Origin: a virus
IMG/VR virus record: IMGVR_UViG_3300033388_003659
Span: 1 to 25,582 of that record
Direction: 5' to 3' (one strand)
Length of the DNA stretch: 25,582 bases
Position numbers and translations under genes: made by a program. The notes under the pieces were generated by a model. That model was not told where the DNA came from, ran no database searches, and saw only the letters and a list, made by a program, of their open reading frames with translations. Positions 4,074 to 25,582 of this stretch are shown here, in pieces. Positions within the stretch are counted from its first letter, which is position 1; each line of letters begins with the position of its first letter.

Positions 4074-5674
4074 TAATAACTATTTTTACCATATTCTAAA
4101 TTGATACCAAATGAAGCTGTATCACTAACAGCTCTGGTAGTTATAACATTATTAAACAATATATTAAATTTTTTAAAAAAGAATACCCTAACTAAGAATT
4201 TTTTACCTAAGTCTTTTGGCATCTCATCCAAAGTAAAAGAGTAGACTCTATTATTTTGATTGAATTCAACTTCATGACTCTGAATGATAGATTCAAAATT
4301 AATATCATCGTGTGTTGTAATTTGTAATATAAAATTACCATCTTCACTACGGTATTGTACATAATCTTCAGGGACACCCCAATTAATTGTAGGTTTTAAT
4401 GACCGATAAAAACCTAAATCCATCATATCAGCACTGTCGTCTGTTAGATAAAAAGCGGTTATAGCGTCTCTAACTTTAATAGGATACTTAGGGTCCATTA
4501 TTAATTTTCTACTATCACTACTACTATGATAATATTCTATATTTTTTGTTAGTGTAATACCATTAACCGTTAATATAATATCACTAAGTGGTTTTAGTGG
4601 AGAACTTAATAATATTTCTTGTCTATCTCTACTTGGGTTGTAGTTTATGGATGGTCTTGTTGAGGCACTAGTAGTTATATCGTTGGTAATGCCTGTAACT
4701 ATAAAACTATCTTTTTGTAGGTAGTCTTCATTTAAATTAAATATATCCTCACTGTTAGCACTATTATTTATGTAACTTACTGTTACAGTATCTAGAAAAG
4801 GTTCTAACTCACCGTTAACTATTTCGAACATACCTACATAAGCTGGTATTGTGATATAATCAAGACCTTCAGTTATTTGAACCCCATTTACGTTCACAAT
4901 AAAACTATTGTTTAAAGGGGTACCATTTATTTGAAATATTGTTGTTTGACCTTCAGCTAAATCTACCGATTCTGTTCTTAAACTAGCGGTACCTAACGGA
5001 CTATTATTAATGTTAGTATTCATAAAGGGTTTACTAGGGTTTACTACCGTAATAAAATACCAACCCTCTGAAAACATGTCATCTACTGTTTGTGTTGTTA
5101 AGTTAAATGTATCTATCTCAAATTTATCATCACATTTTTGAGTTCTAAATAAATTAAAGTCTTTTAATATATATTGTGCGTCTTTTTGTGGTAAATCACC
5201 TTGTACTATAGTTTCGTTTAAACTGTGTCCCGTTATTTTATAATATGGTGTACAATTACTTAATTTAGATTTTTGTCCATGAACTATACCCTCTGAACCA
5301 ATAAAGTCTTGGATATCGAATGTGTGGTAACAAAAATTACCTGTATAACCTGTATATTGAGTATTACCAGTTATATTAAAGGTTAAATTAAAATCATCAA
5401 CTTCCGATAAATTATAAACAGCTGTACAACCAGAAGTGGTGTATGTGCTAGCTGTTGTTATACCACTACAAGCGGTTGTTGTGTAACCAGAAGTGGATTT
5501 GGTTGCCCCTTCTAATGTGTAAAGTGGGTTTCTGAAAACCTCATTACAAACATTTAAGTCGTTTTTAATATTAAAAACATTACTTAAACCATTTCTATCA
5601 ACTTCTAACTTAGATAATTCACTGGGTAATGTTACAGGTAGACTATCAATCTTTTTTTTACATAATATACACAT
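4073..5674 (-). CDS. Unknown tail-cluster protein, beta-rich (533 aa)
   Basis: I do not recognise this 533-residue protein. It opens MCILCKKK, then has a Thr/Ser/Gly/Tyr-rich low-complexity patch at about 79-117 (short runs such as TSGYTTTACSG and NTQYTGYTGNF). The rest is dominated by alternating hydrophobic/polar stretches typical of beta-sandwich virion proteins. Two segments resemble each other: one at about 250-300 (FIVNVNGVQITEGLDYITI) and one at about 363-385 (ILTVNGITLTKNIEYY). Both follow the pattern 'hydrophobic-V-N-G-x-x-(L/I)-T-x-x-x-(D/E)-Y', which suggests an internal repeat of a small beta domain. It overlaps both neighbours by one base (TAATG junctions), consistent with coupled translation. 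No catalytic motif, signal peptide or membrane segment is visible. Confidence 0.75.
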   Translation of the reverse strand: MCILCKKKIDSLPVTLPSELSKLEVDRNGLSNVFNIKNDLNVCNEVFRNPLYTLEGATKSTSGYTTTACSGITTASTYTTSGCTAVYNLSEVDDFNLTFNITGNTQYTGYTGNFCYHTFDIQDFIGSEGIVHGQKSKLSNCTPYYKITGHSLNETIVQGDLPQKDAQYILKDFNLFRTQKCDDKFEIDTFNLTTQTVDDMFSEGWYFITVVNPSKPFMNTNINNSPLGTASLRTESVDLAEGQTTIFQINGTPLNNSFIVNVNGVQITEGLDYITIPAYVGMFEIVNGELEPFLDTVTVSYINNSANSEDIFNLNEDYLQKDSFIVTGITNDITTSASTRPSINYNPSRDRQEILLSSPLKPLSDIILTVNGITLTKNIEYYHSSSDSRKLIMDPKYPIKVRDAITAFYLTDDSADMMDLGFYRSLKPTINWGVPEDYVQYRSEDGNFILQITTHDDINFESIIQSHEVEFNQNNRVYSFTLDEMPKDLGKKFLVRVFFFKKFNILFNNVITTRAVSDTASFGINLEYGKNSY

Positions 5675-6228
5675 TATCTGAAAACTATTTTTTCCTTTCC
5701 TCGTACTAATTTAGAGTCATAAAAAGCTCTCTCTCTCACTAATACGGGGTTATCTATTTGAATTACCCTTTCGGTATATGTATTACCTGGGTCATTCGGT
5801 AAAGGTTGTATAACTATACCATTATCGTTTATTGGTCCATCATTAGAATCGTTGGGTCTACCTGTTGGTGTTACTTCGGTGTCAATACCACCGCGATTTT
5901 CTTCACCCACATCTCCACCAGAATTATTAACTGTAGTTCCTGTTGATGGAGCGAAATCTGTTCCGTATTCAATTACTGTTATTTCAGAATCTACATATTC
6001 GAAATCAAAATCACATTCTTCTATTTCAGTACATATAAGGTCATCATTGTTACACCACTTCTCACCCGAAACAAAAATTGTTGTAGCGGGAACGAATTGT
6101 TCAATCATTCTCACCCAAAAACTTTGGAACACCTTTTTATATTCCTCTAATTGTAATAAAGTAACTTGTCTAGTACAATTAGTAAAGTCAGCAGGTACTG
6201 TTATTGTATTTCCAGTGTAACCAGTCAT
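5674..6228 (-). CDS. Unknown small tail-cluster protein (184 aa)
   Basis: This is a 184-residue protein of unknown function. The N-terminal third is compact and aromatic: a predicted helix with EEYKKVFQSFWVRMIEQFVP, then ATTIFVSGEKWCNNDDLIC with two Cys, then an acidic run (EIEECDFDFEYVDSE). The middle (about 90-150) is a flexible Gly/Asn/Pro/Asp-rich linker. The last 35 residues are charged (VRERAFYDSKLVRGKEKIVF). It lies between the fibre-type gene (3-base gap upstream) and the 533-aa gene (1-base overlap downstream), so it could be a connector or fibre-attachment protein; that is only inference from position. The start ATG at 6228 has an A-rich leader (GATAAAAA) and no Shine-Dalgarno sequence. 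Confidence 0.7.
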   Translation of the reverse strand: MTGYTGNTITVPADFTNCTRQVTLLQLEEYKKVFQSFWVRMIEQFVPATTIFVSGEKWCNNDDLICTEIEECDFDFEYVDSEITVIEYGTDFAPSTGTTVNNSGGDVGEENRGGIDTEVTPTGRPNDSNDGPINDNGIVIQPLPNDPGNTYTERVIQIDNPVLVRERAFYDSKLVRGKEKIVFR

Positions 6229-6231
6229 TTT

Positions 6232-8448
6232 TTATCTTATTAAATATAAACCGATATTTTCATTAATATCTTTCATTTTTATCCACTTGTTAGGGATTTC
6301 TTGTTTATTAAGTATTCTTACTTGTCCTAGTAAAGCCACTTTATTCCATTCGGGTCTTTCTTCTCTTGTTAAGTACTCTTTATCAGCATCAAATTCTTTA
6401 GATAACTTTTTACGTTGTATTCTATGTTTTTTGGTACTTACATTACCTTCTTCATCCACCTTACTAGGTAGTTCTAATTCATGGGATTCATATAAAGTTG
6501 TACCCCACTCATCTTTTTCATATTTACCAACCCATTCACCACCCGCTCCAGAATCTGAATTACCTATTACACCTGGATTAGCTGATATCACACCTATAGC
6601 GTTTTCTGAGTTTTCACAAACTTTTATTTTACTACCAACTAATTCTACTACTGTACCTACTGGTATCTCATTACCTTCTACTGATTCGAAATATTCAGCG
6701 TAATCAGCACCAGCTAGGTAATTACCAGAAGCATTAAAGGTGTTTCCATTAAAGTCAACCCTAAAAGCGTTAGACCTACTAGCTCCAACACCAGAACCAT
6801 TACCGATAGTAAGTAGATTAACAGTTCCACCCACTGACCTATCATTATAAGCTCCAATTGCTGTTTCAAAAATATCAGCTTCATTACCAAAACCATGAGC
6901 GTAACCAAAATCACCATTAACTGAGTTTTGACCTCCAGCAGCTTTAGCGTAATCACCATCTACAGTGTTATTCACACAACTTGCGTGAGAGAAAACACCA
7001 TTTACGGTACTACCACTACCCTCAACATGAGAACCAATACCGTTTGCTGTTGTTGACCAACCTTCCGCGTGTGATGTCCAACCACTAGCTATTGTACTTA
7101 AACCTTCCGCGTGTGAGGATATACCCCATGCTTCAGAATGACCACCTTCGGCGTGAGAGCCCGAACCATAAGCTTTAGTGTTGAAACCTTCTGCGTGAGC
7201 GGCGAGTGGGTCGGGACCACCAGAACCTATATTTGAATTAGCTACTGTGTAAGAACCTTCTGCGTGACAACCATTACCATGTGCTGTTGTGAAATAACCT
7301 TCTGCGTGAGAACCCATTCCACTAACACTTGTCATTACCCCTTCTGCGTGACTGTAATGACCAGTAGCTTGAGTTAAAGCACCGATAGCGAAAGCTAGTT
7401 CACCAGAAGCTGTAGAACCACTATGTTGTACACTACTATGTACTGTAATTGGTGAACAACCGTAAACGTTACTTACATATAAATCTGTTATACAAGTTGC
7501 TGATGTGTTACCTGTGAAGGAACCACCACCTGTAGAACCAGAACAACAAGGTTCTTCCCATACAGCGTTACCACCACTATCTATTGTTAATACATTACCT
7601 TGTGTACCACCTGTAAAATTAAATGTGACACCTTGTAGTGTTGTACTCCCAGAAACATTTAAATCTCCACTAACCCCTAAATCATTAACATCTAAAGTGT
7701 TATTAACTGTTAAATTTTCTGTTGTTAAATCACCATTAATAATAACATCTGACATTATGTTTAGTTCCGGACATCCATATAATCTAACTACATGTAACTC
7801 ATTTATACAGTCACCTGATGTATTACCTGTGAAAGAATCTCCACCAGCTATTGCTGATAAATCTACACTATAGAAATTAGCCCCTAAAATGTTATTATCA
7901 AATTGTAATGTGTTACCTACTAAAGTAGCGTTATCTGTATAAGAATCAGTTGTCCCTCCAGTTAAAATTGTTGATAAATCTACACTATAGAAATTAGCCC
8001 CTAAAATGTTATTATCAAATTGTAATGTACTACCACTAAGTGTTACACCATCTGTGTAAGAATCAGTAGCTCCTGTAAGTATGGATGATATGTCTACATT
8101 GTAATAATTAGCCCCTAAAATGTTATTATCAAATTGTAATGTGTTACCTACTAAAGTAGCGTTATCTGTATAAGAATCGGTAGCTCCTGTAAGTATAGGT
8201 GATATGTCCACACTATAGAAATTAGCCCCTGAAATGTTATTATCAAATTGTAATGTGTTACCTACTAAAGTAGCGTTATCTGTATAAGAATCTATAGTAG
8301 CACCTGTAAATATAGGTGACAATAATGATAAAGGAGCCTTATATGAAGAACCCGCTGGGTCTTGTGAGGTATCATTTGTATTAACAATGTGGATAAAGGT
8401 ATTGTTTGATGTTACCCCTGTCGCTGTTGTTCTTGCTGTTAATTTCAT
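6232..8448 (-). CDS. Trimeric tail fibre/appendage protein with YadA-like head repeats and C-terminal peptidase G2 (intramolecular chaperone) domain
   Basis: This 738-residue protein has a clear fibre architecture. Residues about 50-203 hold four near-identical 38-residue repeats (core SYTDNATLVGNTLQFDNN). Two related segments follow at about 205-240 and 310-345, each with SFTGNTS, CI and a YGC. Residues about 348-535 carry roughly ten 14-residue SHAEG-type repeats, the signature of YadA/haemagglutinin left-handed beta-roll heads, which trimerise. From residue 581 to the end the sequence matches the peptidase G2 / intramolecular chaperone type seen in phi29-group neck appendages: ADYAEYFESVEGN, then AIGVISANPGVIGNS, then YLTREERPEWNKVALLGQV. 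In that family the domain drives trimer folding and is then cut off by autoproteolysis; cleavage here is inferred, with the junction expected near residue 580. The product is probably a host-recognition fibre. A 44-base AT-rich gap lies upstream. Confidence 0.9.
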   Translation of the reverse strand: MKLTARTTATGVTSNNTFIHIVNTNDTSQDPAGSSYKAPLSLLSPIFTGATIDSYTDNATLVGNTLQFDNNISGANFYSVDISPILTGATDSYTDNATLVGNTLQFDNNILGANYYNVDISSILTGATDSYTDGVTLSGSTLQFDNNILGANFYSVDLSTILTGGTTDSYTDNATLVGNTLQFDNNILGANFYSVDLSAIAGGDSFTGNTSGDCINELHVVRLYGCPELNIMSDVIINGDLTTENLTVNNTLDVNDLGVSGDLNVSGSTTLQGVTFNFTGGTQGNVLTIDSGGNAVWEEPCCSGSTGGGSFTGNTSATCITDLYVSNVYGCSPITVHSSVQHSGSTASGELAFAIGALTQATGHYSHAEGVMTSVSGMGSHAEGYFTTAHGNGCHAEGSYTVANSNIGSGGPDPLAAHAEGFNTKAYGSGSHAEGGHSEAWGISSHAEGLSTIASGWTSHAEGWSTTANGIGSHVEGSGSTVNGVFSHASCVNNTVDGDYAKAAGGQNSVNGDFGYAHGFGNEADIFETAIGAYNDRSVGGTVNLLTIGNGSGVGASRSNAFRVDFNGNTFNASGNYLAGADYAEYFESVEGNEIPVGTVVELVGSKIKVCENSENAIGVISANPGVIGNSDSGAGGEWVGKYEKDEWGTTLYESHELELPSKVDEEGNVSTKKHRIQRKKLSKEFDADKEYLTREERPEWNKVALLGQVRILNKQEIPNKWIKMKDINENIGLYLIR
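6844..7407 (-). repeat. YadA-like SHAEG repeat region inside the fibre gene
   Basis: About ten degenerate 42-base units encode SHAEG-x-x-T-x-A-x-G-x-G type peptides (protein residues about 348-535 of the fibre gene). The plus strand repeatedly shows 'ccttctgcgtga' or 'ccttccgcgtg'. One unit near 7200-7235 carries an insertion (Gly/Pro/Asp-rich) that breaks the period. The repeats are coding and in frame; they match known trimeric autotransporter head repeats, not a CRISPR array. Confidence 0.85.
7862..8297 (-). repeat. Four tandem 114-117-base coding repeats in the fibre gene
   Basis: Repeat units begin at about 7862, 7979, 8093 and 8207 on the plus strand, giving periods of 117, 114 and 114 bases. 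Each contains a nearly invariant block including 'ttattatcaaattgtaatgt'. The encoded 38-residue unit is SYTDNATLVGNTLQFDNN followed by I-L-G-A-N-F-Y-S-V-D. The third unit in protein order (DNA unit at 7979) has the divergent core DGVTLSGST. The high nucleotide identity suggests recent expansion by unequal recombination or slippage. Confidence 0.9.
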
Positions 8449-8492: not shown

Positions 8493-10145
8493 TTAAAAAT
8501 CCATAAAGTCATATGGTATTCCATCTTGGAAATCAAATCCCCATCCGTCTTGGAATTGTTTTTCTTCTAATACCTTAAAACAAGTTGCTGTTCCAGCACT
8601 TAAGGTAAATCCTGGAGGACATGGTGAATATTCAACACAACATTGCCCACACATATTAAAAGTAAGTTCCATTTCTTTACTATTAATAACTTGTTTGGTG
8701 TGTGGTTCTAATATATTAGATTGTTCCCAATAATCAGTATACCTCCATGGTATGTCAGCATCTGGACTAGGTGCGAATGTTCTATTGATAACACCAAAAC
8801 CTTGTATTAAACTATCATCACCACCTTTTATTATTATACTATCTTGTTCTGTTACACCAGTAAATGTACCAGGGTTATAAACCCAAGATTTTTTATTATC
8901 AATTACTCTTTGTAGTTCAAATCCTGGACATTTTTTGTTGTCCCAAAATACTCTATCTTCTTCTTTGTAACAATCAACTCTAATATTATCTATTCTAATA
9001 TCGTAATCACAACAGTTCTTCAAACCTGCAATAAAAACATCTAAATTGAAAGAGTTGTTATTAACATTGATTAATCTACAACCTAAATCAACCCAACTAT
9101 TAAACCCATCTGTGTCAGAAGTAAAGATTCCTAATTGTTCAACAGTTATAAGTGGGTGGGTTGGTAAGATTGATGCTGTTATTACGTCTGTTACACATTC
9201 TTGTGTCGGTTCTTTAAAAAATAATTTTACTGATATTAATAAATCATCACATTCTTTTGGTGATATTAATTCTTGGTTTAATGATATAGTTATATTATTT
9301 GGGTCATTAACACCATTATCTTCAGTAACAGTTTGACAAATACCTAAACCATCATTCCATTGAACTGGAAAACCGGCCACATCATTAGTACAACATTCTT
9401 GATTTAAAGCGGTTGATATACCATTTAAACTACCAATAACTTGTTGTATGTTAGTTGTTGGTGGTAAATTTGGTGCTAAATAAGGATTTAAAAATATACT
9501 ATCGAAAAAACAAGTTGTGTTTTGGGGTACTAATTTACAATCACCACGACCCCCTAAACCATTAGCAACCCATGAAACAGGTTGTCCAACAACATTTTGA
9601 TTACAACACTCTGGGTTATCTATACCTATAATCGTTAGTTGGTCTATACCACTAATACTTAATTCATTAATTGTAGGACAAGGGTTTGATTCATTAGTAA
9701 CCATACAGGCCCCCCTACCGTTTAGATTAGTTATATATGAGACTGGCATTCCTGTTGTATGTGTATCACAACATTCTGGTGATAAATTATTACCTTGTGA
9801 ATCTAATACCACACCACCTGTGGTTACTATCATCTCTGCTATTGTTGGGCATAGTATTGGACTTAAATCTATGACATCATCATCATCATCATTTGAGCTA
9901 TTACCAGAACCACCAGAGTTACCACTTAAATCATCTAAATCTAAAGCACCACCTCCACCACCTGGTGTTGTATTGTTTTTCTGACAACAACCAGAAGTTA
10001 GTATCCCACCTAAATCTGGTTGGTAAGGTCCGTTTGGTCCACATGATACTGTAGCGAACCCATTATAATTTAAAGCTGTTGGGTCTGTACAACCCACCAT
10101 TTCTGGTCCGCCACCACCTTTACCTCCTCCTGCTTCTTGAGCCAT
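8493..10145 (-). CDS. Cys-rich repeat protein, paralogue of the C-terminal half of the adjacent 1160-aa protein (550 aa)
   Basis: This 550-residue protein starts MAQEAGGGKGGGGPEMVGC and goes straight into a 'GCTDPTALNYN' motif (residues 18-28), a Cys-bracketed unit familiar from Bacteroidota secreted proteins. A Gly/Asn/Asp linker (62-92) follows. At about 95-275 there are three Cys-rich repeats with the pattern E-C-C, then G-x-P-V-x-(W/Y), then G-x-C: ECC at 124-126, 179-181 and 250-252, with GMPVSY, GQPVSW and GFPVQW. Residues 290-400 look beta-rich (a Cys-stabilised carbohydrate-binding-like fold is possible but unproven). The C-terminus has CPPGFTLSAGTATCFKV and ends FQDGIPYDFMDF. The start, repeats and end all resemble residues 688 onward of the upstream gene, so this appears to be a tandem duplicate. 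The product is probably an externally exposed baseplate/fibre decoration. Confidence 0.8.
   Translation of the reverse strand: MAQEAGGGKGGGGPEMVGCTDPTALNYNGFATVSCGPNGPYQPDLGGILTSGCCQKNNTTPGGGGGALDLDDLSGNSGGSGNSSNDDDDDVIDLSPILCPTIAEMIVTTGGVVLDSQGNNLSPECCDTHTTGMPVSYITNLNGRGACMVTNESNPCPTINELSISGIDQLTIIGIDNPECCNQNVVGQPVSWVANGLGGRGDCKLVPQNTTCFFDSIFLNPYLAPNLPPTTNIQQVIGSLNGISTALNQECCTNDVAGFPVQWNDGLGICQTVTEDNGVNDPNNITISLNQELISPKECDDLLISVKLFFKEPTQECVTDVITASILPTHPLITVEQLGIFTSDTDGFNSWVDLGCRLINVNNNSFNLDVFIAGLKNCCDYDIRIDNIRVDCYKEEDRVFWDNKKCPGFELQRVIDNKKSWVYNPGTFTGVTEQDSIIIKGGDDSLIQGFGVINRTFAPSPDADIPWRYTDYWEQSNILEPHTKQVINSKEMELTFNMCGQCCVEYSPCPPGFTLSAGTATCFKVLEEKQFQDGWGFDFQDGIPYDFMDF
9321..9863 (-). repeat. 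Three ECC / G-x-P-V-x-W coding repeats (550-aa gene)
   Basis: Protein residues about 95-275 contain three units spaced by 55 and 71 residues. Each has adjacent cysteines after a Glu, then six or seven residues to G-x-P-V-x-(W/Y), then a single Cys. Units read ECC..GMPVSY..C, ECC..GQPVSW..C and ECC..GFPVQW..C. Further copies are in the upstream gene. Confidence 0.75.
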
Positions 10146-10160
10146 TATATGTTGTTTTTA

Positions 10161-10311
10161 TTATTCATATGTTATACCGTCTATTTGGAATGGGTAACAC
10201 TGTGTAGGTTCGTCACCATATACATCACTCGTTACTGTATAACAAGTGCTTATTGGGTGTTGGTAGGTTTTTTGAACACCGTAAATACATTCTGGTAGTC
10301 GGTTTTATTAT
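10161..10311 (-). other. Probable true C-terminal coding extension in the +1 frame (frameshift)
   Basis: The main frame of the 1160-aa gene ends at a TGA at 10225 with a tail (RMYLRCSKNLPTPNKH...) that looks non-coding in character. In the +1 frame the same DNA reads PECIYGVQKTYQHPISTCYT and continues through PTQCYPFQIDGITYE to a TAA at 10163-10161. That end resembles the paralogous neighbour's end (FQDGIPYDF; C-x-x-G then TCFKV versus TCYTV). The switch must lie between the +1-frame stop at about 10307-10305 and about 10293, giving ...KPTPECIYG... The extension closes the unusual 79-base gap to 15 bases. It could be a programmed +1 shift, a real mutation or a one-base assembly error. Confidence 0.7.
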
Positions 10312-13300
10312 AAAGAAACCGTAATCAGAACCAACACCTGTTTGACTAGTAAAACCAGGGGAAGGATACATTTCTGTGTTAGGTATATCACCGAATGGGG
10401 TGATATTAATAGGTGTACTAGGTAATTGTGCCTTTATCGTATCTATATTAAAATCGTTTAATGTTTTCTGTATAAACAATACCGAATTCCAATTATTTGG
10501 GTCTGCTGCTGGAGCGTTTAGTATTGTTTGTGGTGGTGAAACTGATGATTGTAAATAATCCACACCATTAACTATTAATTTACTCATAGTTAAGTAAACT
10601 TTTTCTCCTAAACTATTAATACCTAAATCACCATTAGGGTGATAATTACCTGTATTTAAACCACTATAAAAAATACCATAAGAAGATTCTATTAATTCAT
10701 ATCTACAAGTATCATATGTTATAGGTATTTGTCTAAAACATTTTGTACCATCCCATTCAAATACTTCACCAGTTTGTTCTAGTAAATAATCTTTACAACA
10801 ATCTTGTTGAAGTGGTAACCCATTTAAATCTACCGCCTCTATTTGTAATACGGAGTTACCACTCGCATTAGTAATTGTTGTTTCAACAAATTCGAAAGGT
10901 GGACATGTGTTTGGTGATACTACTTGTGTACAAATAGTGTTACCTAAATTATCTACAGATATAGCACCACCTCTTCTTGAACAACATTCTGGATTGGTAA
11001 TGTTTTGGTTATCTATACTAACAATAACACACTGACTTGCCGCTAAAACACATTTTGTACCAGTCCAATTGACTGGGTTACCCACAACCTGTTCATTACA
11101 ACACTCAGCAGTTGTTATACCTTGTACGATACCTGCTGGTGATATGTTTATATTACTATTATCACAAGGTGAAGGTGGAGTTATTACTTCACAAGTATTA
11201 GTGTTAGTATTCCAATTAACTGGTACACCAACTAAACTTTCTGTACAACAACCTTGTGGGACTGGGTTACCATCTATAATAGCGTTACCATTTAATATTG
11301 TGTAACTACCTATACAATTTGGACCTTGTGGACCTTGTGGTCCTTGTGGGTCAAGAGGACCAATTCCACCGCCACTACTACCATTAGGGTCATATACACC
11401 TCTATTAGCTGTACAACAACCTTTTGTGTATGAACCAGAACCACCACCACCAGAAACGACCCATGAACTTGTATACCATGAGGAGCAAAGTGAGGTGGGG
11501 TTAGTTGGGTCGGTTATATTTATTACATACCTATAAAACCCTGTTGGACTTGATGGGTCAGCTTCTATAAATTCTGTACCAGCTTGATATATACAACCTG
11601 TAACTATTGGTCCACCACCACCTTTTCCACCACCTTTAGCTTGTCCAGCTGTTTGTTGTCTTAAATTAAATGTAGGGCCATCGTCCAATCCATTTGGATT
11701 TCCTGTTGGTGTGGGTCTACCACCACCTGTTGGTGAAGGTACTGAACCATTTACATTTTCATAATATTCTTGACCACAAAGTAACTTAACTGGTGGACAC
11801 CACCAACAAACTAAATCTCTTTCAGGGTTATTTAGTGGGTCCGTACTGAAGATATCTTCAACTGAAAAGTATTCAGTATTACCGGGTGAGGGAGGTAAAC
11901 TTACGGGTGGTATTAAACTTGGGGTAGTGGGTGGTATCATAGCTGATAAATAATAACCCCCTAATTCGTCACAACATTCTTTAGTTATAAGTGAGGAAGC
12001 TTCAGCTAAAGAAACTAAATCTCCATTAAAGAATGTGGTGTATATGTTAGTATTTGTTAACTCCACGTTTGGTGTTAACTGATTAAAGAAATAGATACCG
12101 TTATCATAAGCTAATGCTGGGGTTGGGCATGGTATTACATCACAACCACCAACAAAGTCTGTTGTGAAACTTATACCTAATGAGTTTGGGCTATCTCCAT
12201 ATGTAAAATCATCTATAGCACCAGCCTGATTTACAATAGCATTTTGTGAAATCATATTATTGTTGTTCATTATTTCAGCAAAATTAGTACCATAATTTTG
12301 AACACCATTATCTATGTTACCATTATCTAATTCGGTAAATATTTGTTCTAAAGTGTTAAAAGGTGTTGTTCCACTAACACTACCATCAAAACCTTCTATC
12401 ATACACTCTAATGGTGATAAGTAAGCTCTACCGTAGTCATAAGGACCTAAATGTGGGTTGTTACCAACCTCAGATAAGTTACCACCATTATACCAAAAAC
12501 CATCCATTTGGTAGTACCAATCATTTGAGTCTGAGGGTATTTTTGGAAATCCGTATTCGTCCATAGGGTAATCACTGACAGATAAATCGTCAATACCTAA
12601 ATCAAAATAATTCGCTATTAATCCTAACGTTCTTTCTACATCTAATCTTTCTTTAGCAATATAGATATACTCATCTAAGCTTACAACACAATTATCTATT
12701 CCGAATAAATTAAGGAAAAATTCTAAGACCTTTCTATGACCTTTTGATTTAAATAACCACCAAGCGTTTATGACTAATCTTCTCCATAACTCTAAATCCA
12801 TTTCATGAATGGATAGATTTCTAGAATACCCAGAAAAGGGTACTATATTAATATTACCATAACCTTCTTGTTGACTATTTTCTGGTAAAACATCATTAAA
12901 TAAATTATTATCGAAGAAACTCAATAGAACGTCTAACCCTAACTCACTAGCTAACATTTTCACTAATTCATCAGGTGTGTTATCTTTTTTATTATAAGTA
13001 ACTACCCTTGAAAACGCTAGTGCGTCAATATATTTTTTAATCTCGTCAAACTCTCTACCATATATTTTTAATAGTTTATCAACCTTTCTTCCATATATAG
13101 GGTTACCACCTCCATCTGTGTCAAATTCTATGATTGAATGGGTTATAAACCTTCTAGTAATTAAACTAGTTTTATACTCATCCATTTTTTTAGAGATACC
13201 CAACCAATTAGTTATATAAGTTTCATATTTATCACCATTAACATCTAGATTATAACCATCTGAGGTTGGCCAAGTTAATCTTATTTTAGATAAAAATTGT

Positions 13301-13707
13301 AAACCTGAATCTGTAGGAGTGGGTACTTGAATGCTAATTGTGTATTGTGGTTCTGTTAGTCTATTAAGGATGTTATTTTCGAACTCGTCTAATAGGTTGA
13401 AGAAATATTTATTTAATACCTCTTCTTTTGGTCTAATATGATAATTAGCTTGACCGAAACCAGAGCTCATAAGTGGTGGCCAAACATTACCTTTAACACT
13501 TAATGTTAATACATTACTACTAGTTGTACTACCTGTAAAATCTAAAATATAGAAATCACCAAATATATTACTAATTTGATAATCTTTAAAACTATTATTT
13601 AAGTTACTTATATCCCCATAATCATTACTCACAGTGAAATCATCTGCTTGGAACCTTAAACCATAATCATTTCTAACTGTTGTTACGGGAACTTCAAAAG
13701 ACTTCAA
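10225..13707 (-). CDS. Baseplate protein with P2 gpI-like region fused to Cys-rich repeat region (1160 aa as read; probably about 1180 aa)
   Basis: The N-terminal 400 residues look like a baseplate wedge protein of the P2 gpI / contractile-system tail protein type: VKMLASELGLDVLLSFF (249-265), then LELWRRLVINAWWLFKSKGH (305-324) and RKVLEFFLNLFGI, the usual 'RR-L-x-x-A-x-x-L-(Y/F)-x-x-KG' helix pattern of that family. After a Pro/Gly-rich hinge (590-700, including AKGGGKGGGGP at 690-700) comes a Cys-rich region with CC pairs at 764, 820, 869, 908 and 970, most followed by G-x-P-V-x-W and a further Cys, plus a short collagen-like PQGPQGPQGP. This half is paralogous to the next gene. The ATG at 13707 overlaps the preceding gene by 14 bases. 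The annotated stop at 10225 is probably reached only in the wrong frame: see the extension to 10161. The gpI assignment rests on motif resemblance and gene neighbourhood. Confidence 0.8.
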   Translation of the reverse strand: MKSFEVPVTTVRNDYGLRFQADDFTVSNDYGDISNLNNSFKDYQISNIFGDFYILDFTGSTTSSNVLTLSVKGNVWPPLMSSGFGQANYHIRPKEEVLNKYFFNLLDEFENNILNRLTEPQYTISIQVPTPTDSGLQFLSKIRLTWPTSDGYNLDVNGDKYETYITNWLGISKKMDEYKTSLITRRFITHSIIEFDTDGGGNPIYGRKVDKLLKIYGREFDEIKKYIDALAFSRVVTYNKKDNTPDELVKMLASELGLDVLLSFFDNNLFNDVLPENSQQEGYGNINIVPFSGYSRNLSIHEMDLELWRRLVINAWWLFKSKGHRKVLEFFLNLFGIDNCVVSLDEYIYIAKERLDVERTLGLIANYFDLGIDDLSVSDYPMDEYGFPKIPSDSNDWYYQMDGFWYNGGNLSEVGNNPHLGPYDYGRAYLSPLECMIEGFDGSVSGTTPFNTLEQIFTELDNGNIDNGVQNYGTNFAEIMNNNNMISQNAIVNQAGAIDDFTYGDSPNSLGISFTTDFVGGCDVIPCPTPALAYDNGIYFFNQLTPNVELTNTNIYTTFFNGDLVSLAEASSLITKECCDELGGYYLSAMIPPTTPSLIPPVSLPPSPGNTEYFSVEDIFSTDPLNNPERDLVCWWCPPVKLLCGQEYYENVNGSVPSPTGGGRPTPTGNPNGLDDGPTFNLRQQTAGQAKGGGKGGGGPIVTGCIYQAGTEFIEADPSSPTGFYRYVINITDPTNPTSLCSSWYTSSWVVSGGGGSGSYTKGCCTANRGVYDPNGSSGGGIGPLDPQGPQGPQGPNCIGSYTILNGNAIIDGNPVPQGCCTESLVGVPVNWNTNTNTCEVITPPSPCDNSNINISPAGIVQGITTAECCNEQVVGNPVNWTGTKCVLAASQCVIVSIDNQNITNPECCSRRGGAISVDNLGNTICTQVVSPNTCPPFEFVETTITNASGNSVLQIEAVDLNGLPLQQDCCKDYLLEQTGEVFEWDGTKCFRQIPITYDTCRYELIESSYGIFYSGLNTGNYHPNGDLGINSLGEKVYLTMSKLIVNGVDYLQSSVSPPQTILNAPAADPNNWNSVLFIQKTLNDFNIDTIKAQLPSTPINITPFGDIPNTEMYPSPGFTSQTGVGSDYGFFIIKPTTRMYLRCSKNLPTPNKHLLYSNE
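10710..11610 (-). repeat. ECC / G-x-P-V-x-W coding repeats (1160-aa gene)
   Basis: Protein residues about 700-1000 hold a series of Cys-rich units: GCC with VYDPNG, GCC with GVPVNW, ECC with GNPVNW, ECC with GGAISVDN, and DCC with GEVFEW, each followed after about 5-10 residues by a single Cys. Spacing is about 40-60 residues. They correspond to the three units in the adjacent 550-aa gene and mark a duplicated domain array. Confidence 0.7.
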
Positions 13708-14173
13708 AAGTACAAATATCGTTTATATTATCATATGTGTAATTTAAAACTGTGTTTCTAGGTGTATATGTGGTGTCTGTTGGTATGTATACGTTGACAT
13801 ATAAAGAACCCTTCCATTTTATTATTATTTGTTCAATTGTGGTTCTTAAATATTCGTAAAAACTACCAAAATAAACATATTTACTTAAATCATCTGGGTC
13901 TAAATTTAAAACTGTTGTTATATTTTGGTTTGATAATAATACAGATTCTTGGTCTGTAATATTTAAAGTTTCTAAACTATAAGATTCTGAAAATGTACCA
14001 GTGTTATACACCCTACTTAAAGGTGCACTAAGGTTACTTGTTAATTCAAAGTTACCCAATGTAAACAAGGTTGAACCTTCGGTGAACTGTTGTCCTACTA
14101 AATTTGGTGAGAAATCACCTTGTCCTATTTTATAAGGTTCTGTTATTGAACCTGGTACAACTTTTATTGGCAT
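13694..14173 (-). CDS. Unknown small tail-cluster protein (159 aa)
   Basis: This is a 159-residue protein without a recognisable motif. It is acidic/neutral and beta-rich with many Thr, Ser, Asn and Leu. A helix-like segment (YFGSFYEYLRTTIEQIIIKW at about 101-120) sits before a beta-rich end (GSLYVNVYIPTDTTYTP). It overlaps the start of the 1160-aa baseplate gene by 14 bases and lies 2 bases after the 300-aa gene, so it is probably co-translated with baseplate components. Role unknown; a small wedge or connector protein would fit the position. Confidence 0.7.
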   Translation of the reverse strand: MPIKVVPGSITEPYKIGQGDFSPNLVGQQFTEGSTLFTLGNFELTSNLSAPLSRVYNTGTFSESYSLETLNITDQESVLLSNQNITTVLNLDPDDLSKYVYFGSFYEYLRTTIEQIIIKWKGSLYVNVYIPTDTTYTPRNTVLNYTYDNINDICTFEVF

Positions 14174-21442: not shown

Positions 21443-23305
21443 CTAAGACTCTGTTACGGTAGAACTTCTTTTTACCCTCACTTTTATATCACTTTGTGGT
21501 TTTTTGATTTCAAACATTGAGTCTTGGTCACCGAACAAAGCGTAATCCTCTAATAAATCAATTCTTTTTGAATTATTAAAGGGTATTTGTGTTTGTAAAT
21601 TCTGTGGTAATGACTTTTGGGTGGTTTGGTTTAATGAGTAATCACCACCTATTCTATTATAAACTCTAACGTCAATAACATTTAATACACCACCAACGTT
21701 ATTGATATTTTCAACTAATTGAGCCATATATATATTATCACCCATCTCCCATTTTTTAATATCAAAATAATTTTTAATACTTTGTATTACATTATTTATA
21801 ACCTCAGACTGATTAACAACTTTATCTATAAATAAATCAACTTCAAAAGCTAGATTAATTATTTTACCGTCTCTAATTGAAACGTAATCATTAATCATTC
21901 TATAATCTGCTAACCATGTAGCTATATTTTCTTTTAATGTGTTGGTTGAGGTGTTGGTTAATTTACCATCTGAATCTAAACCTAAAATATAAACTTGTAT
22001 TTTATTTTGTTCTTCAGTGACTAATTGTCTATATGGTGAACCAAATTTACCTGGTATTTTAGCTATTATAGCCTCATAATCTTTAATTGTAACCGCTCTA
22101 TTTTGAGAAGCGAAATTATACCTTGTTAGTTGTTTAATTTGGTCCACAGTGGGGGTTCCAGCTCCGCCAATAGCGGGTATTGGGTTGTTAACCTTTAAAG
22201 ATGATAGTATTGTTTGATTTACTGCGTTACTAGGTCCATTCACTACCATATTTATAGAACCAAGTCCATTTATAATATTTGGACCAACGTTACTACTTGG
22301 TCCACCACCGACCCTATACCTCATAAATAGAGTTGTGTTAGGTTTTAAAATCTCACCTAATGAAGTTGTATTAATAAAGTCACCTATTTTAATACCTGTT
22401 TGTGATATAGTATCTAATTGGTCTAAACCAGATTTACTACCACTACCAAAAGTTAATCTACAAAAGTTATTATCAGTGAAATCTTTCACAAACTTTTTAG
22501 TGGTACTAACATACTTACCGGGTTTAACAGCTGGGTTATCACTATCTCTACTTGAATCCTCAATAAATATTTTATCCTCAGCTAAAGAATCCATTTCATA
22601 CCACCTTAAATTTGGGTCAATGAATTGGTCTAGTGTCGGATTGGTCACGAAATCTGTACCGTCCATTGTTATAACATTTTCTATGGATAAAACATTTGTA
22701 TCTGGTAAAACTAATTCAAAAAATGGTACTGAATCCTTTTTACTTATAACTTTTTTAAATATTTTAGTTGTACCATTAATAACTAATTCTCTTTTAACTA
22801 TTGTATAACTAACAATGGTGTTATTATTATTAATATTAGGTAGAATTAATCTATTAGGTACACCACCTGTAGTGTAAGGGGAGTTAAAATCTATATCATC
22901 TAGGTTTTCAAAAAACTGACCACCACCCGCTACTTGTGAACCATATCTTATTAAAGGTGCGTACCTATTGTCCCAAGTGTCACCTCTAACTGGTAGTGTA
23001 ACACTAAAATCCACTAATGTTATACTTGGTCTTAATCCTGGTATTTTTAACCCTAGAGTTCTAGATATAGCTAAAACATTTTTTCTTTCTTGTGCGTAAT
23101 CTAACTGTGTTTCCTGTAACATCCTATCTGTTTGGAAAGATAACATATCAGCCACAGCTGCGTTAAGTTCTAATAACATCATACCAACTGAAGCGTCATT
23201 AAAATCTGAAAATATTTCTGGGTAATATAATTTAATGAAATCTACCAACTCATTCCTAACGTCAGCGAAGTTTCTAGAAAAATAATTTATCTTTTTTTCT
23301 GCCAT
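21443..23305 (-). CDS. Baseplate wedge protein, gp6-like / baseplate J family (620 aa)
   Basis: This is a structural wedge protein that, in contractile tails, forms the ring joining the baseplate wedges. The N-terminus fits the family closely: VDFIKLYYPEIFSDFNDASV (21-40), LLELNAAVADMLSFQTDRML (44-63) and the 'R-K-N-V-L-A-I-S-R-T-L-G' helix (75-86). The C-terminal half has the baseplate-J hallmark: YNFASQNRAVTIKDYEAII (396-414), then VQVY-type strands (IQVYILGLDSDGKL) and the region 'W-L-A-D-Y-R-M-I-N-D-Y-V' (464-475). The length is close to that of T4 gp6 (about 660 residues). It sits 11 bases after the gp25-like gene, the usual order in contractile systems. The start ATG has the leader AAATAAAAAAAA, again with no Shine-Dalgarno sequence. 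Confidence 0.9.
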   Translation of the reverse strand: MAEKKINYFSRNFADVRNELVDFIKLYYPEIFSDFNDASVGMMLLELNAAVADMLSFQTDRMLQETQLDYAQERKNVLAISRTLGLKIPGLRPSITLVDFSVTLPVRGDTWDNRYAPLIRYGSQVAGGGQFFENLDDIDFNSPYTTGGVPNRLILPNINNNNTIVSYTIVKRELVINGTTKIFKKVISKKDSVPFFELVLPDTNVLSIENVITMDGTDFVTNPTLDQFIDPNLRWYEMDSLAEDKIFIEDSSRDSDNPAVKPGKYVSTTKKFVKDFTDNNFCRLTFGSGSKSGLDQLDTISQTGIKIGDFINTTSLGEILKPNTTLFMRYRVGGGPSSNVGPNIINGLGSINMVVNGPSNAVNQTILSSLKVNNPIPAIGGAGTPTVDQIKQLTRYNFASQNRAVTIKDYEAIIAKIPGKFGSPYRQLVTEEQNKIQVYILGLDSDGKLTNTSTNTLKENIATWLADYRMINDYVSIRDGKIINLAFEVDLFIDKVVNQSEVINNVIQSIKNYFDIKKWEMGDNIYMAQLVENINNVGGVLNVIDVRVYNRIGGDYSLNQTTQKSLPQNLQTQIPFNNSKRIDLLEDYALFGDQDSMFEIKKPQSDIKVRVKRSSTVTES

Positions 23306-23316
23306 TTTTTTTTATT

Positions 23317-23721
23317 TTATATTTCTATTATTACAAAGTCAGCTTTTTGTAATGCTCCTTCGGTAAATATATAATCAATCCTAACTACAGCTGAATGTTC
23401 TGGTCTAACATTAAATTCACCCTGTTCTGGATATTCTACTTTTAATTCTGTTACTACTAAATTGGGGATATATTTGTCTATAGCTGTTTGTATTTCAGAT
23501 TTAATATTACTATGAGTTTGACTATCATTTTGTTCAAAAATATATTGCCTTAAATTACAACCAAAATCTGGTAAATAAAGTCTATCACCAGGTGTTGTTA
23601 ATAGTAAATGTATTAAATCAGATTTAATAGCTTGTTTACCTTGGTCGTTTAATTTTAGAAAATAGTTTTTCTTTGTATCATCCTCAAAAGGAAAAGCTAT
23701 ATTAATGTATTTATACCCCAT
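23317..23721 (-). CDS. Baseplate wedge protein, gp25-like (GPW/gp25 family, lysozyme-related fold name only) (134 aa)
   Basis: This short wedge protein belongs to the GPW/gp25 family that contacts the sheath-baseplate junction in contractile tails and injection systems. The central motif DLIHLLLTTPGDRLYLPDFG (residues 35-54) matches the family pattern 'I-x-x-L-L-x-T-x-x-G-x-R-x-x-x-P-x-F-G', followed by CNLRQYIFE. The C-terminal strands (VVTELKVEY, SAVVRIDYIF) also fit. The length of 134 residues is typical. It is the first gene of the tail operon, 123 bases after the RNR stop and downstream of a terminator, and it is followed 11 bases later by its usual partner, the gp6/baseplate-J-like gene. 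ATG at 23721 has the A-rich leader AATAAAAAACAA. Confidence 0.9.
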   Translation of the reverse strand: MGYKYINIAFPFEDDTKKNYFLKLNDQGKQAIKSDLIHLLLTTPGDRLYLPDFGCNLRQYIFEQNDSQTHSNIKSEIQTAIDKYIPNLVVTELKVEYPEQGEFNVRPEHSAVVRIDYIFTEGALQKADFVIIEI

Positions 23722-23844: not shown

Positions 23845-25582
23845 CTATACCTTTTCGACACCATTTTTTGACATTTTGGTTAAATCTATATCAATTTCAC
23901 AAGCTCCACCAGCACAAGCTAGTTCACCACTTAAATCTGTATTATCTTCTAATTCTATAACTTTAGATAAATCAATGTTTGTTAAAGACTTCATCATTTT
24001 TTTATAAGTTTCGACATCACAATCTTCGAATGGTGCTTGGTCATATGTACCACCATTATAAGGTAATACAGACAAACCGTTATAATACTTACGATTAGTC
24101 CACATCCACTCTCCAGCTAACTCCCAATCTTCTGGTTTTAAAGATACGGTTGCTGACACATTATGTGTGTTTTGACCTGTCCTATGACCTGGATTAATCC
24201 ATTCTTGTGATACTTTCTTAACCCTTTCTAATAAATCAAATGGTGATTCATGTCTTAATATAGAACCTTCTGGTGCTTTTTGTGGTACTGAGATTACAGC
24301 GGTATCGTGTGGTCTAAATAATTCGTCTTCTACTAAATCAGGGTGATTTGTGACTAAATAATTATAAATAGACTCATTCTTACCTACTCTCATTCTTCTA
24401 ACATAATAATCGTTATGCCAAGCGTGAATACCAGATGAAGTACCCAATGTTAAAGATGTTGTACCAGCTGGTTTAACTGTAGTAGTTCTAGCTGATTCGT
24501 TTATACCTATAATATCAGCAATCCTTTTATTCTCTTCTTTAACAATATCTGCGGCTTCAGTCATGTCATAACCCAACACAACACCTGAACCAATACCAGT
24601 CATAGATACACCTATTAAAGCATCTTTCTCTGTGGTTCTTTTCCATATATCCCTTAAGTAATGGAAATCTGTATAACCAGCTTGTAATGTACCAATAAAG
24701 GATGCTGCCTTTACTCTTTCATTTAAATCTTCCTGTGACTCAATATTGGATACGTTTACTTCACATAAATTACAGAACTGAAATGGTCTTAGTGCTATCT
24801 CACAACATGGGTTGGTTCCCCAATCTTTATCATAAGTAAAATAAATACCTGGTTCACCAGCATTTGATAATTCCACTCGTTTCCATAAATCTAAGAAAAA
24901 ACTTTTTGTAATTCTATTTCTTAATAATACAGCTGAATTATTAGCTCTACCCCTTTGTGGGTTTAACTCCCACCAATTACCTGATTTACAAGAAATCATT
25001 TCATTGTCATCAGCTGAAAATAAACTAATAAGTGCTGCTCTTCTAATACCACCAGCTAATACTGCATCAGCAATATAACAAATTATATCATGAGTTTCTA
25101 AAGTAGTTAATTTCTCACCATCTTTTTTATTATCTAAAACACCAGTGATTTTAAGTATACACTCTTTTAGTGGTTGGGGTCCTGGTGCTTTACCACCTGA
25201 TGTAACCAACATAGCTCCTTTTGGTCTAATATCTGAAAAATCGAATCTTGGTGTAGATGAATTAGTACCTAGGTAAGATTTCATTAAAACTTTTATTGCG
25301 TCAGCCCAACCTTCGATTGAATCTGCTATAACAAACCTTCTTGTTCTATTAGGGTTTGGTTTTCTAATTTCTGGTAATTTTTCCACATGATGATTTTGTA
25401 CTGAATAACCTACACCTGTACCACCTAACAATAAAAACATTGTTTCTGAAAATGCGTCTAAGTGGTCGATAGGTAAATAAGCACAGTTATAAATTCTATT
25501 TGGTGAAATTTCAATTGGTTTACCACCGAATTGCATACTTCTCATTGAGGGTAATACTTTTTTGTCGTATACAAATTTATAT
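23845..25582 (-). CDS. nrdJ: Ribonucleoside-triphosphate reductase, adenosylcobalamin-dependent class II monomeric type (partial, 5' end off window)
   Basis: This enzyme reduces ribonucleotides to deoxyribonucleotides using a cobalamin-generated thiyl radical. The frame is open to the right edge (residues YKFVYDKKVLPS precede MRSMQFGGKP), so the ATG at 25545 is internal and about 100 N-terminal residues are missing. Counting from that Met: NCAYLPID (20-27) carries the first redox Cys; MFLLLGGTGVGYSVQ (36-50) is the conserved loop; NPCCEI (245-250) carries the predicted radical Cys (247) and Glu (249), with the second redox Cys eleven residues on (258, CNL); TTVKPAGTTSLTLGTSSGIH (355-374) is the phosphate-binding region; and C-x4-C (544, 549) near the C-terminus is the re-reduction pair of the Lactobacillus leichmannii-type enzyme. 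The Cys after the radical Cys, where NPCGE is common, is notable. A strong terminator follows 25 bases after the stop. Confidence 0.93.
   Translation of the reverse strand, partial: YKFVYDKKVLPSMRSMQFGGKPIEISPNRIYNCAYLPIDHLDAFSETMFLLLGGTGVGYSVQNHHVEKLPEIRKPNPNRTRRFVIADSIEGWADAIKVLMKSYLGTNSSTPRFDFSDIRPKGAMLVTSGGKAPGPQPLKECILKITGVLDNKKDGEKLTTLETHDIICYIADAVLAGGIRRAALISLFSADDNEMISCKSGNWWELNPQRGRANNSAVLLRNRITKSFFLDLWKRVELSNAGEPGIYFTYDKDWGTNPCCEIALRPFQFCNLCEVNVSNIESQEDLNERVKAASFIGTLQAGYTDFHYLRDIWKRTTEKDALIGVSMTGIGSGVVLGYDMTEAADIVKEENKRIADIIGINESARTTTVKPAGTTSLTLGTSSGIHAWHNDYYVRRMRVGKNESIYNYLVTNHPDLVEDELFRPHDTAVISVPQKAPEGSILRHESPFDLLERVKKVSQEWINPGHRTGQNTHNVSATVSLKPEDWELAGEWMWTNRKYYNGLSVLPYNGGTYDQAPFEDCDVETYKKMMKSLTNIDLSKVIELEDNTDLSGELACAGGACEIDIDLTKMSKNGVEKV

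Follow-up and report, generated by a model that had tools for sequence, protein, structure and literature searches.

In a 25,582-base genome record of an uncultured virus (IMG/VR virus record IMGVR_UViG_3300033388_003659, positions 1 to 25,582, hereafter the window), we studied two neighbouring proteins, U (upstream; 10225-13707) and D (downstream; 8493-10145), together with the product F of a fibre gene (6232-8448). Our reading, to which we give a probability of about three in four, is that U and D are neighbours carrying the same repeat and that D acts as a fibre hub, in which a peptide with F[QM] pairs would dock the N-terminus of the separately encoded, trimeric F. U would anchor in the baseplate, and both proteins have a tandemly copied, old repeat with four cysteines (C..CC..C), probably a disulfide-stapled spacer. 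In D the repeats would lead into a jelly-roll core and then a variable slot; in the window this slot would hold a peptide of 17 residues whose three F[QM] anchors stand at intervals of eight. F would bind this peptide through its conserved N-terminus, and fibres would therefore be exchangeable as whole genes. The fibre gene, placed at the slot, divides D into a 550-amino-acid part and a 184-amino-acid tail, and in relatives that lack the socket a linker or another domain would occupy the slot. To our knowledge, most tail fibres of uncultured phages are not recognisable, because their sequences vary and family libraries lack them; a two-part signature (carrier peptide plus fibre plug) would allow fibres and carriers to be found in metagenomes and would open the mechanism of fibre exchange to tests with short peptides.

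All genes under discussion lie on the minus strand, with T4-type baseplate wedge genes upstream of them. The features of D and F are as follows.

5674..6228 (-): detached D tail, an open reading frame (ORF) of 184 amino acids, recognised by homology to single-ORF D
6232..8448 (-): F, 738 amino acids, with an N-terminal plug, SHAEG repeats and a C-terminal self-cleaving chaperone
8320..8448 (-): N-terminal plug of the fibre, MKLTARTTATGVTSNNTFIHIVNTNDTSQDPAGSSYKAPLSLL
8493..10145 (-): D, a Cys-rich, putatively fibre-carrying protein of 550 amino acids (5.1% Cys)
8496..8567 (-): putative fibre socket peptide, EEKQFQDGWGFDFQDGIPYDFMDF, seen in D exactly where a fibre gene is adjacent and also preceding fibre genes of unrelated phages
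8646..8951 (-): most conserved stretch of D, VIDNKKSWVYNPG..NRTFAPSxDADxPWRYTDY, with the most invariant columns of a 26-member alignment
8952..9311 (-): D core (residues 279-398), modelled as a jelly-roll beta-sandwich resembling a carbohydrate-binding module (AlphaFold predicted local distance difference test, pLDDT, about 90)
9336..9851 (-): three ECC units of D, at 9705-9851, 9537-9680 and 9336-9512 (pLDDT about 70-93)
9984..10094 (-): GCTD..NYN.FA..C..GCC module, the usual D N-terminus, which starts most D proteins

Relatives were collected by querying with U and, separately, with an alignment of D; the alignment was required, as a single-sequence query with D in viral_contigs returned zero relatives. 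U orthologues were recovered from more than 40 IMG/VR loci and D orthologues from 26 non-redundant loci (individual loci are given as L001, L002 and so on). Among these 26, the peptide was present in all seven D proteins that have a fibre gene at the slot and in none of the 19 that do not (Fisher p = 1.5e-6). It forms the end of D in the window (KQFQDGWGFDFQDGIPYDFMDF), L058 (KQFQDGIDFDFQDGQRYDFMDF), L082 (KQFQDGQNFEFQDGESYDFMDF), L060 (KQFQNNVNFDFQDGVEYDFN) and L075 (KLFQTGNKFQFMDGKNYIFQ), and is internal to single-ORF D proteins in L085 (KQFQDNFYFDFMDGFPYQFMDD) and L088 (KMFQDDECFIFMDGDSYDFQDG). Under a strict regular expression (regex), 12 of 874 ORFs of at least 200 amino acids matched, every one of them a D of fibre loci. 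On a tree built from a neighbouring 300-amino-acid protein and the N-terminal part of U, fibre presence changed state six times, and all six independent phylogenetic pairs agreed on peptide and fibre (p = 0.03, the least possible for six). The association between peptide and fibre gene has been repeatedly gained or lost.

Outside the D family, the same pairing was followed with the plug consensus LTxRxxATGVTxxDLIHIVxTxDTSQNPAGSSYKA, scanned in viral_contigs as a DNA pattern, and plug-type N-termini were found in at least 77 environmental loci. These outside loci were chosen in two ways, by fibre N-terminus and by peptide. Of those chosen by fibre N-terminus, 48 of 907 distinct ORFs ended in the peptide among the matches listed; a fibre ORF came directly after 41 of the 48 and a fibre with a variant N-terminus after four more, while 15 of the remaining 859 ORFs directly preceded a fibre ORF. 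Where loci were chosen by peptide, most untruncated viral cases had a fibre ORF next (37 strong and two weak regex matches, and one by eye). The carriers are mostly adaptors of about 100 amino acids, and they also include a 1296-amino-acid protein, a 449-amino-acid ORF with TPTPT linkers, D itself and internal sites of large proteins. With a regex that allowed other spacings, the anchors were spaced exactly 8/8 in 94 of 98 peptides.

These co-occurrences could also arise if peptide and fibre N-terminus merely travelled together as a genetic cassette, with no contact in the virion, an explanation that would suit the usual position of the peptide, which in most cases closes the ORF next to the fibre gene on its upstream side. 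However, the peptide also occurs inside the single-ORF D proteins of L085 and L088, and the apparent exceptions to direct adjacency (L172, L184, L187, L191, L194 and L036) proved to have it within a large nearby protein, 0.7 to 2.5 kb from the fibre start. The 8/8 spacing is moreover kept on unrelated carriers, which counts against a cassette because linkage alone would not conserve spacing. We consider the cassette explanation unlikely, and the peptide is probably a socket for exchangeable fibres, since in many unrelated environmental phages a tail-fibre gene follows it closely. We infer physical binding, with one anchor for each fibre chain. More tentatively, and at somewhat less than even odds, F[QM]-x6-F[QM]-x6-F[QM] may be a general adaptor that joins a single chain to a three-fold fibre, one anchor per chain, and may serve as the standard fibre-swapping socket on unrelated carriers of many environmental phages.

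Several results weigh against the docking of F by D. The fibre of L060 was counted by eye because of its variant N-terminus, and the regex alone gives p = 3e-5; the peptide of D falls in a low-confidence part of the AlphaFold model; fibre genes without a recognisable nearby socket were found in L131, L132, L144, L147, L150, L186 and L195 (some of these loci are fragments with little upstream sequence); and in L246 and L290 the ORF that ends in the peptide precedes a protein of a different kind. In addition, the window may not encode a working U, because U is broken in this record (see below). Apart from these points, the peptide pattern gave three chance matches in short frames of bacterial genome contigs, which were not used for host assignment. 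Tandem socket peptides were seen in L160 (5726-6081), L164 (minus strand), L258, L282 and L293, at the end of a large protein and again at the end of the next adaptor of about 100 amino acids, suggesting that they might be serial connectors; the first carrier is 574-742 amino acids long in L258/L259.

The other partner, F, carries a self-cleaving Peptidase_G2 chaperone known from trimeric appendages (PF11962; E = 3e-34, 118.9 bits against a cut-off of 25) and matches phrog_4775, a pre-neck appendage, at E = 4e-27. The chaperone likens F to phi29 gp12-type appendages with a Peptidase_G2/IMC chaperone, from which it differs in having another N-terminus and SHAEG repeats. The only isolates with a similar plug were Cellulophaga phages. 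In Cellulophaga phage phi13:1 (Cbastvirus ST), gp15 has a related N-terminus (LTDRDEIVNVSDDDYIHVVDVSDTTDDPTGTSKK) and is a structural protein confirmed by tandem mass spectrometry (MS/MS); gp16 (L244, 5393-6445), also seen by MS/MS, follows directly and begins YLFQDKNDYALQDKNILLF, with an initial FQDKNDYALQDKNILLF segment of socket-like 8/8 spacing. The phi13:1 case differs from the window in that the plug match is weak (E 0.09-0.9), the socket-like segment begins the product of the next gene, and U and D are absent.

As a described principle, the nearest is found in KP32/Przondovirus phages of Klebsiella, in which a short, conserved segment at the N-terminus of a fibre or spike fastens it to a dedicated anchor carried by a different tail protein, a T4gp10-like domain in the receptor-binding protein (RBP) RBP1, making whole RBP genes exchangeable (PMC13073335). 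By analogy, the system proposed here would work similarly with different parts: F likewise has a short conserved N-terminus, whereas the anchor would be a peptide of 17 residues with three anchor points, present on carriers of many unrelated kinds. Pfam reported no T4gp10-like anchor domain in D, and no gp10 profile was compared.

The slot of D can be read from its relatives. In 17 of 26 loci one ORF encodes the whole of D; in L001, L002, L004, L050 and others D passes, beyond a variable segment, into a tail containing FQSFWVRMIEQFVPATTIFVSGEKW. In the window, the core/tail junction is occupied in order by the peptide KQFQDGxxFDFQDGxxYDFMDF, the 738-amino-acid fibre gene (6232-8448) and the detached tail (5674-6228), which shares 52% identity with residues 641-826 of D in L001, where D is a single ORF, and 75% with a detached 181-amino-acid ORF of L003. 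It might be supposed that D was destroyed when the fibre gene inserted, leaving the 550-amino-acid ORF as a broken relic, with both pieces pseudogenes; D is indeed one ORF in most relatives, and U is itself broken twice in the window record. Against this, the split recurs in nine loci on separate branches (split and single states of D changed at least nine times on the tree), both pieces retain start codons, tight packing and conserved motifs, and the 550-amino-acid ORF ends in a conserved peptide, not in random sequence. L003 is split without an insert, as are L069, L071 and L073, and in these four the peptide is absent. We regard the relic explanation as very improbable.

Within D, the core resembles sugar-binding domains and phage receptor-binding heads, a likeness of its predicted structure that is suggestive only (best VIA Z 8.0 for the EclA lectin domain, 7.9 for the Tuc2009 RBP head and 7.3 for CBM15; values so low can reflect a common arrangement). 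Against a viral structure library, D gave loose, long alignments only. The most conserved stretch (8646..8951) is possibly an interface, as the model confidence there is low.

The features of U, the protein proposed to anchor in the baseplate, are the following.

13694..14173 (-): N-terminal part of U, 159 amino acids, in the same gene as the 10225-13707 ORF, with the frame broken at the join
10225..13707 (-): U, baseplate-associated, with a conserved N-terminal region of about 640 amino acids (the 159-amino-acid part included), a Gly-rich linker, four ECC units and a C-terminal domain of its own
12673..12810 (-): gpI-like KGT motif, RRLVINAWWLFKSKGHRKVLEFF, from hhalign against the P2 gpI family
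11596..11649 (-): U linker, AGQAKGGGKGGGGPIVTG, resembling the start of D
10738..11316 (-): four ECC units of U, at 11191-11316, 11050-11166, 10930-11031 and 10738-10905, from regex and hidden Markov model (HMM)

An earlier sequence-only reading of this DNA had noticed a stretch ending in GC common to the start of D and residues 689-705 of U, and GGGKGGGGP..GC was indeed located at D 6-19 and U 691-705. It had also described a GCC followed by ECC/G-x-P-V-x-W/C units in both, which a BLASTP match of D with U (E = 4e-6) and regex units at U 798, 848, 893 and 935 and D 99, 156 and 212 bore out. Across 24 loci, the unit pattern C-x(14-50)-CC-x(5-28)-C was found 90 times in U and 49 times in D. One could ask whether this is simply the composition of two unrelated secreted-type proteins, as both are rich in Gly and Cys and BLASTP by itself gives no more than a modest E-value. 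When trained on D units only, however, an HMM scored 35.7 bits on the U of the window and 66 bits on the best U, whereas the highest-scoring of 960 shuffled sequences reached 9.5 bits; when the unit regions of five close loci were compared profile against profile, E was 3.7e-13 and the score 85, against a shuffled maximum of 21.6. The AlphaFold models also agree on the unit in both proteins, placing a hairpin, a short CC-bearing helix and a second hairpin in the same order; in the U model, units 1 and 4 are confidently folded. The profile and HMM scores exclude shared composition on present data, leaving it a negligible chance, and the ECC units of U and D are, by sequence profile, homologous. 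Their C..CC..C layout suggests two disulfides per unit.

With a combined HMM, the unit was restricted to U, D and ORFs between them among the non-redundant loci listed. U and D adjoin in 19 of 24 loci (gap of 82 bp or less); one or two additional ORFs separate them in the other five, in each of which one such ORF carries the repeat. Intervening ORFs with the repeat, several of them Cys-rich, lie at L069 6762-7952, L073 6613-7530, L079 6264-8225, L076 6242-8928 and L084 6240-6560, and the locus makes additional repeat copies.

The sequence-only reading went further and took D to be the C-terminal half of U, copied by tandem duplication into a gene standing by itself, with one copy anchored and the other free or differing in specificity. 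The adjacency of the genes and their common linker and repeats would fit a recent event of this kind, and so would a module at the start of D: inside U the GCTD module occurs in L001 and L002 only, and within the L001 genome (7536-14224) the U module is nearly identical to that of D, while that in the U of L002 (9932-11518) resembles the D module of the window. From these resemblances, copying of GCTD modules from one protein to the other seems to have taken place, and module exchange does happen. A duplicated Cys-rich module in adjacent genes therefore stands, but the half-copy does not. The common part is the repeat module of only about 200 residues, with four units in U and three in D, and neither the jelly-roll core nor the NKKSWVYNPG region of D has a counterpart in U. 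The ending said to be shared once the frameshift was corrected was not recovered: the region of U after the units compared with the second half of D gave E = 0.11 by hhalign (the verdict is taken from this value and not from the shuffle null, because one shuffle gave an outlying score of 132.9). For 119 of 139 units, the best match was the same protein type in another genome, and the DNA similarity of the U and D copies lay within a codon-shuffled null.

These unit matches, the codon-shuffled null and the unrelated second halves contradict the strong form of recent tandem duplication, which we hold to be quite improbable. The paired arrangement that the earlier reading had proposed to look for in phage databases was found in all 24 tabulated loci, so that the duplication predates this lineage. 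Given the short common part, the unrelated endings, the unit matches and the DNA similarity, the divergence of U and D is, as judged from sequence, old. The analysis gave no sign of D assembling around U or serving as an alternative binding head; its results favour D as a carrier for a fibre with a gene of its own.

The gpI-like anchor proposed for U was weakly supported. A KGT motif in the helical part of its N-terminal region may resemble P2 gpI (hhalign E = 0.001 over 35 columns, probability 21%), and weak, below-cut-off TIGR02242 matches were seen in the U of two relatives. U is, however, several times larger than P2 gpI, and the PF09684 (Tail_P2_I) profile had no match in the window or eight relatives even at E 10, and none in 41 U proteins. 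A fold search with the U model gave nothing usable (the model is weak), and nothing met a family cut-off for U in Pfam, PHROG or NCBIfam. The frame of U is broken twice in the window. Near 13694-13707, the break coincides with a tandem duplication of CTTTTGAAGT, and the 159-amino-acid ORF beyond it is 63% identical to residues 1-158 of the intact, 1398-amino-acid U of L001. Past the second break, near 10225-10310, the alternate frame ends ..YGDEPTQCYPFQIDGITYE and matches the U C-terminus of other phages, not D. Mutation or assembly error may account for the breaks. The U of L002 is broken at a third, different site (9932-9968).

The U/D pair belongs to no described protein family, and its disulfide-type repeats are unusual for a phage baseplate. 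Pfam, PHROGs and PDB yielded no family for U, D, the adaptor or the fibre N-terminus; no library match met a family cut-off over carrier, plug, U or D, and PDB sequence searches gave nothing convincing. Isolated phages had zero matches for U, D, the 300-amino-acid neighbour or a 1055-amino-acid neighbour, and no paper was found on the motif GCTDPTA or on cysteine-rich baseplate repeats. In D-containing loci the conserved order, small rearrangements aside, is the 300-amino-acid protein, U, D, a 533-amino-acid protein and the 1055-amino-acid protein. The wedge genes of the window are:

21443-23305: gp6-like baseplate wedge gene
23317-23721: gp25-like baseplate wedge gene

The window also encodes a ribonucleotide reductase (23845-25545) with 68% identity to that of Microcystis phage Mel-JY01; the tail genes tested had no isolate match. 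In L011, L016, L032 and L038, the downstream proteins are 1300-1800 amino acids long and Cys-rich, with repeated CPSGYTL..C motifs around inserted domains, and are probably distant forms of D with several slots.

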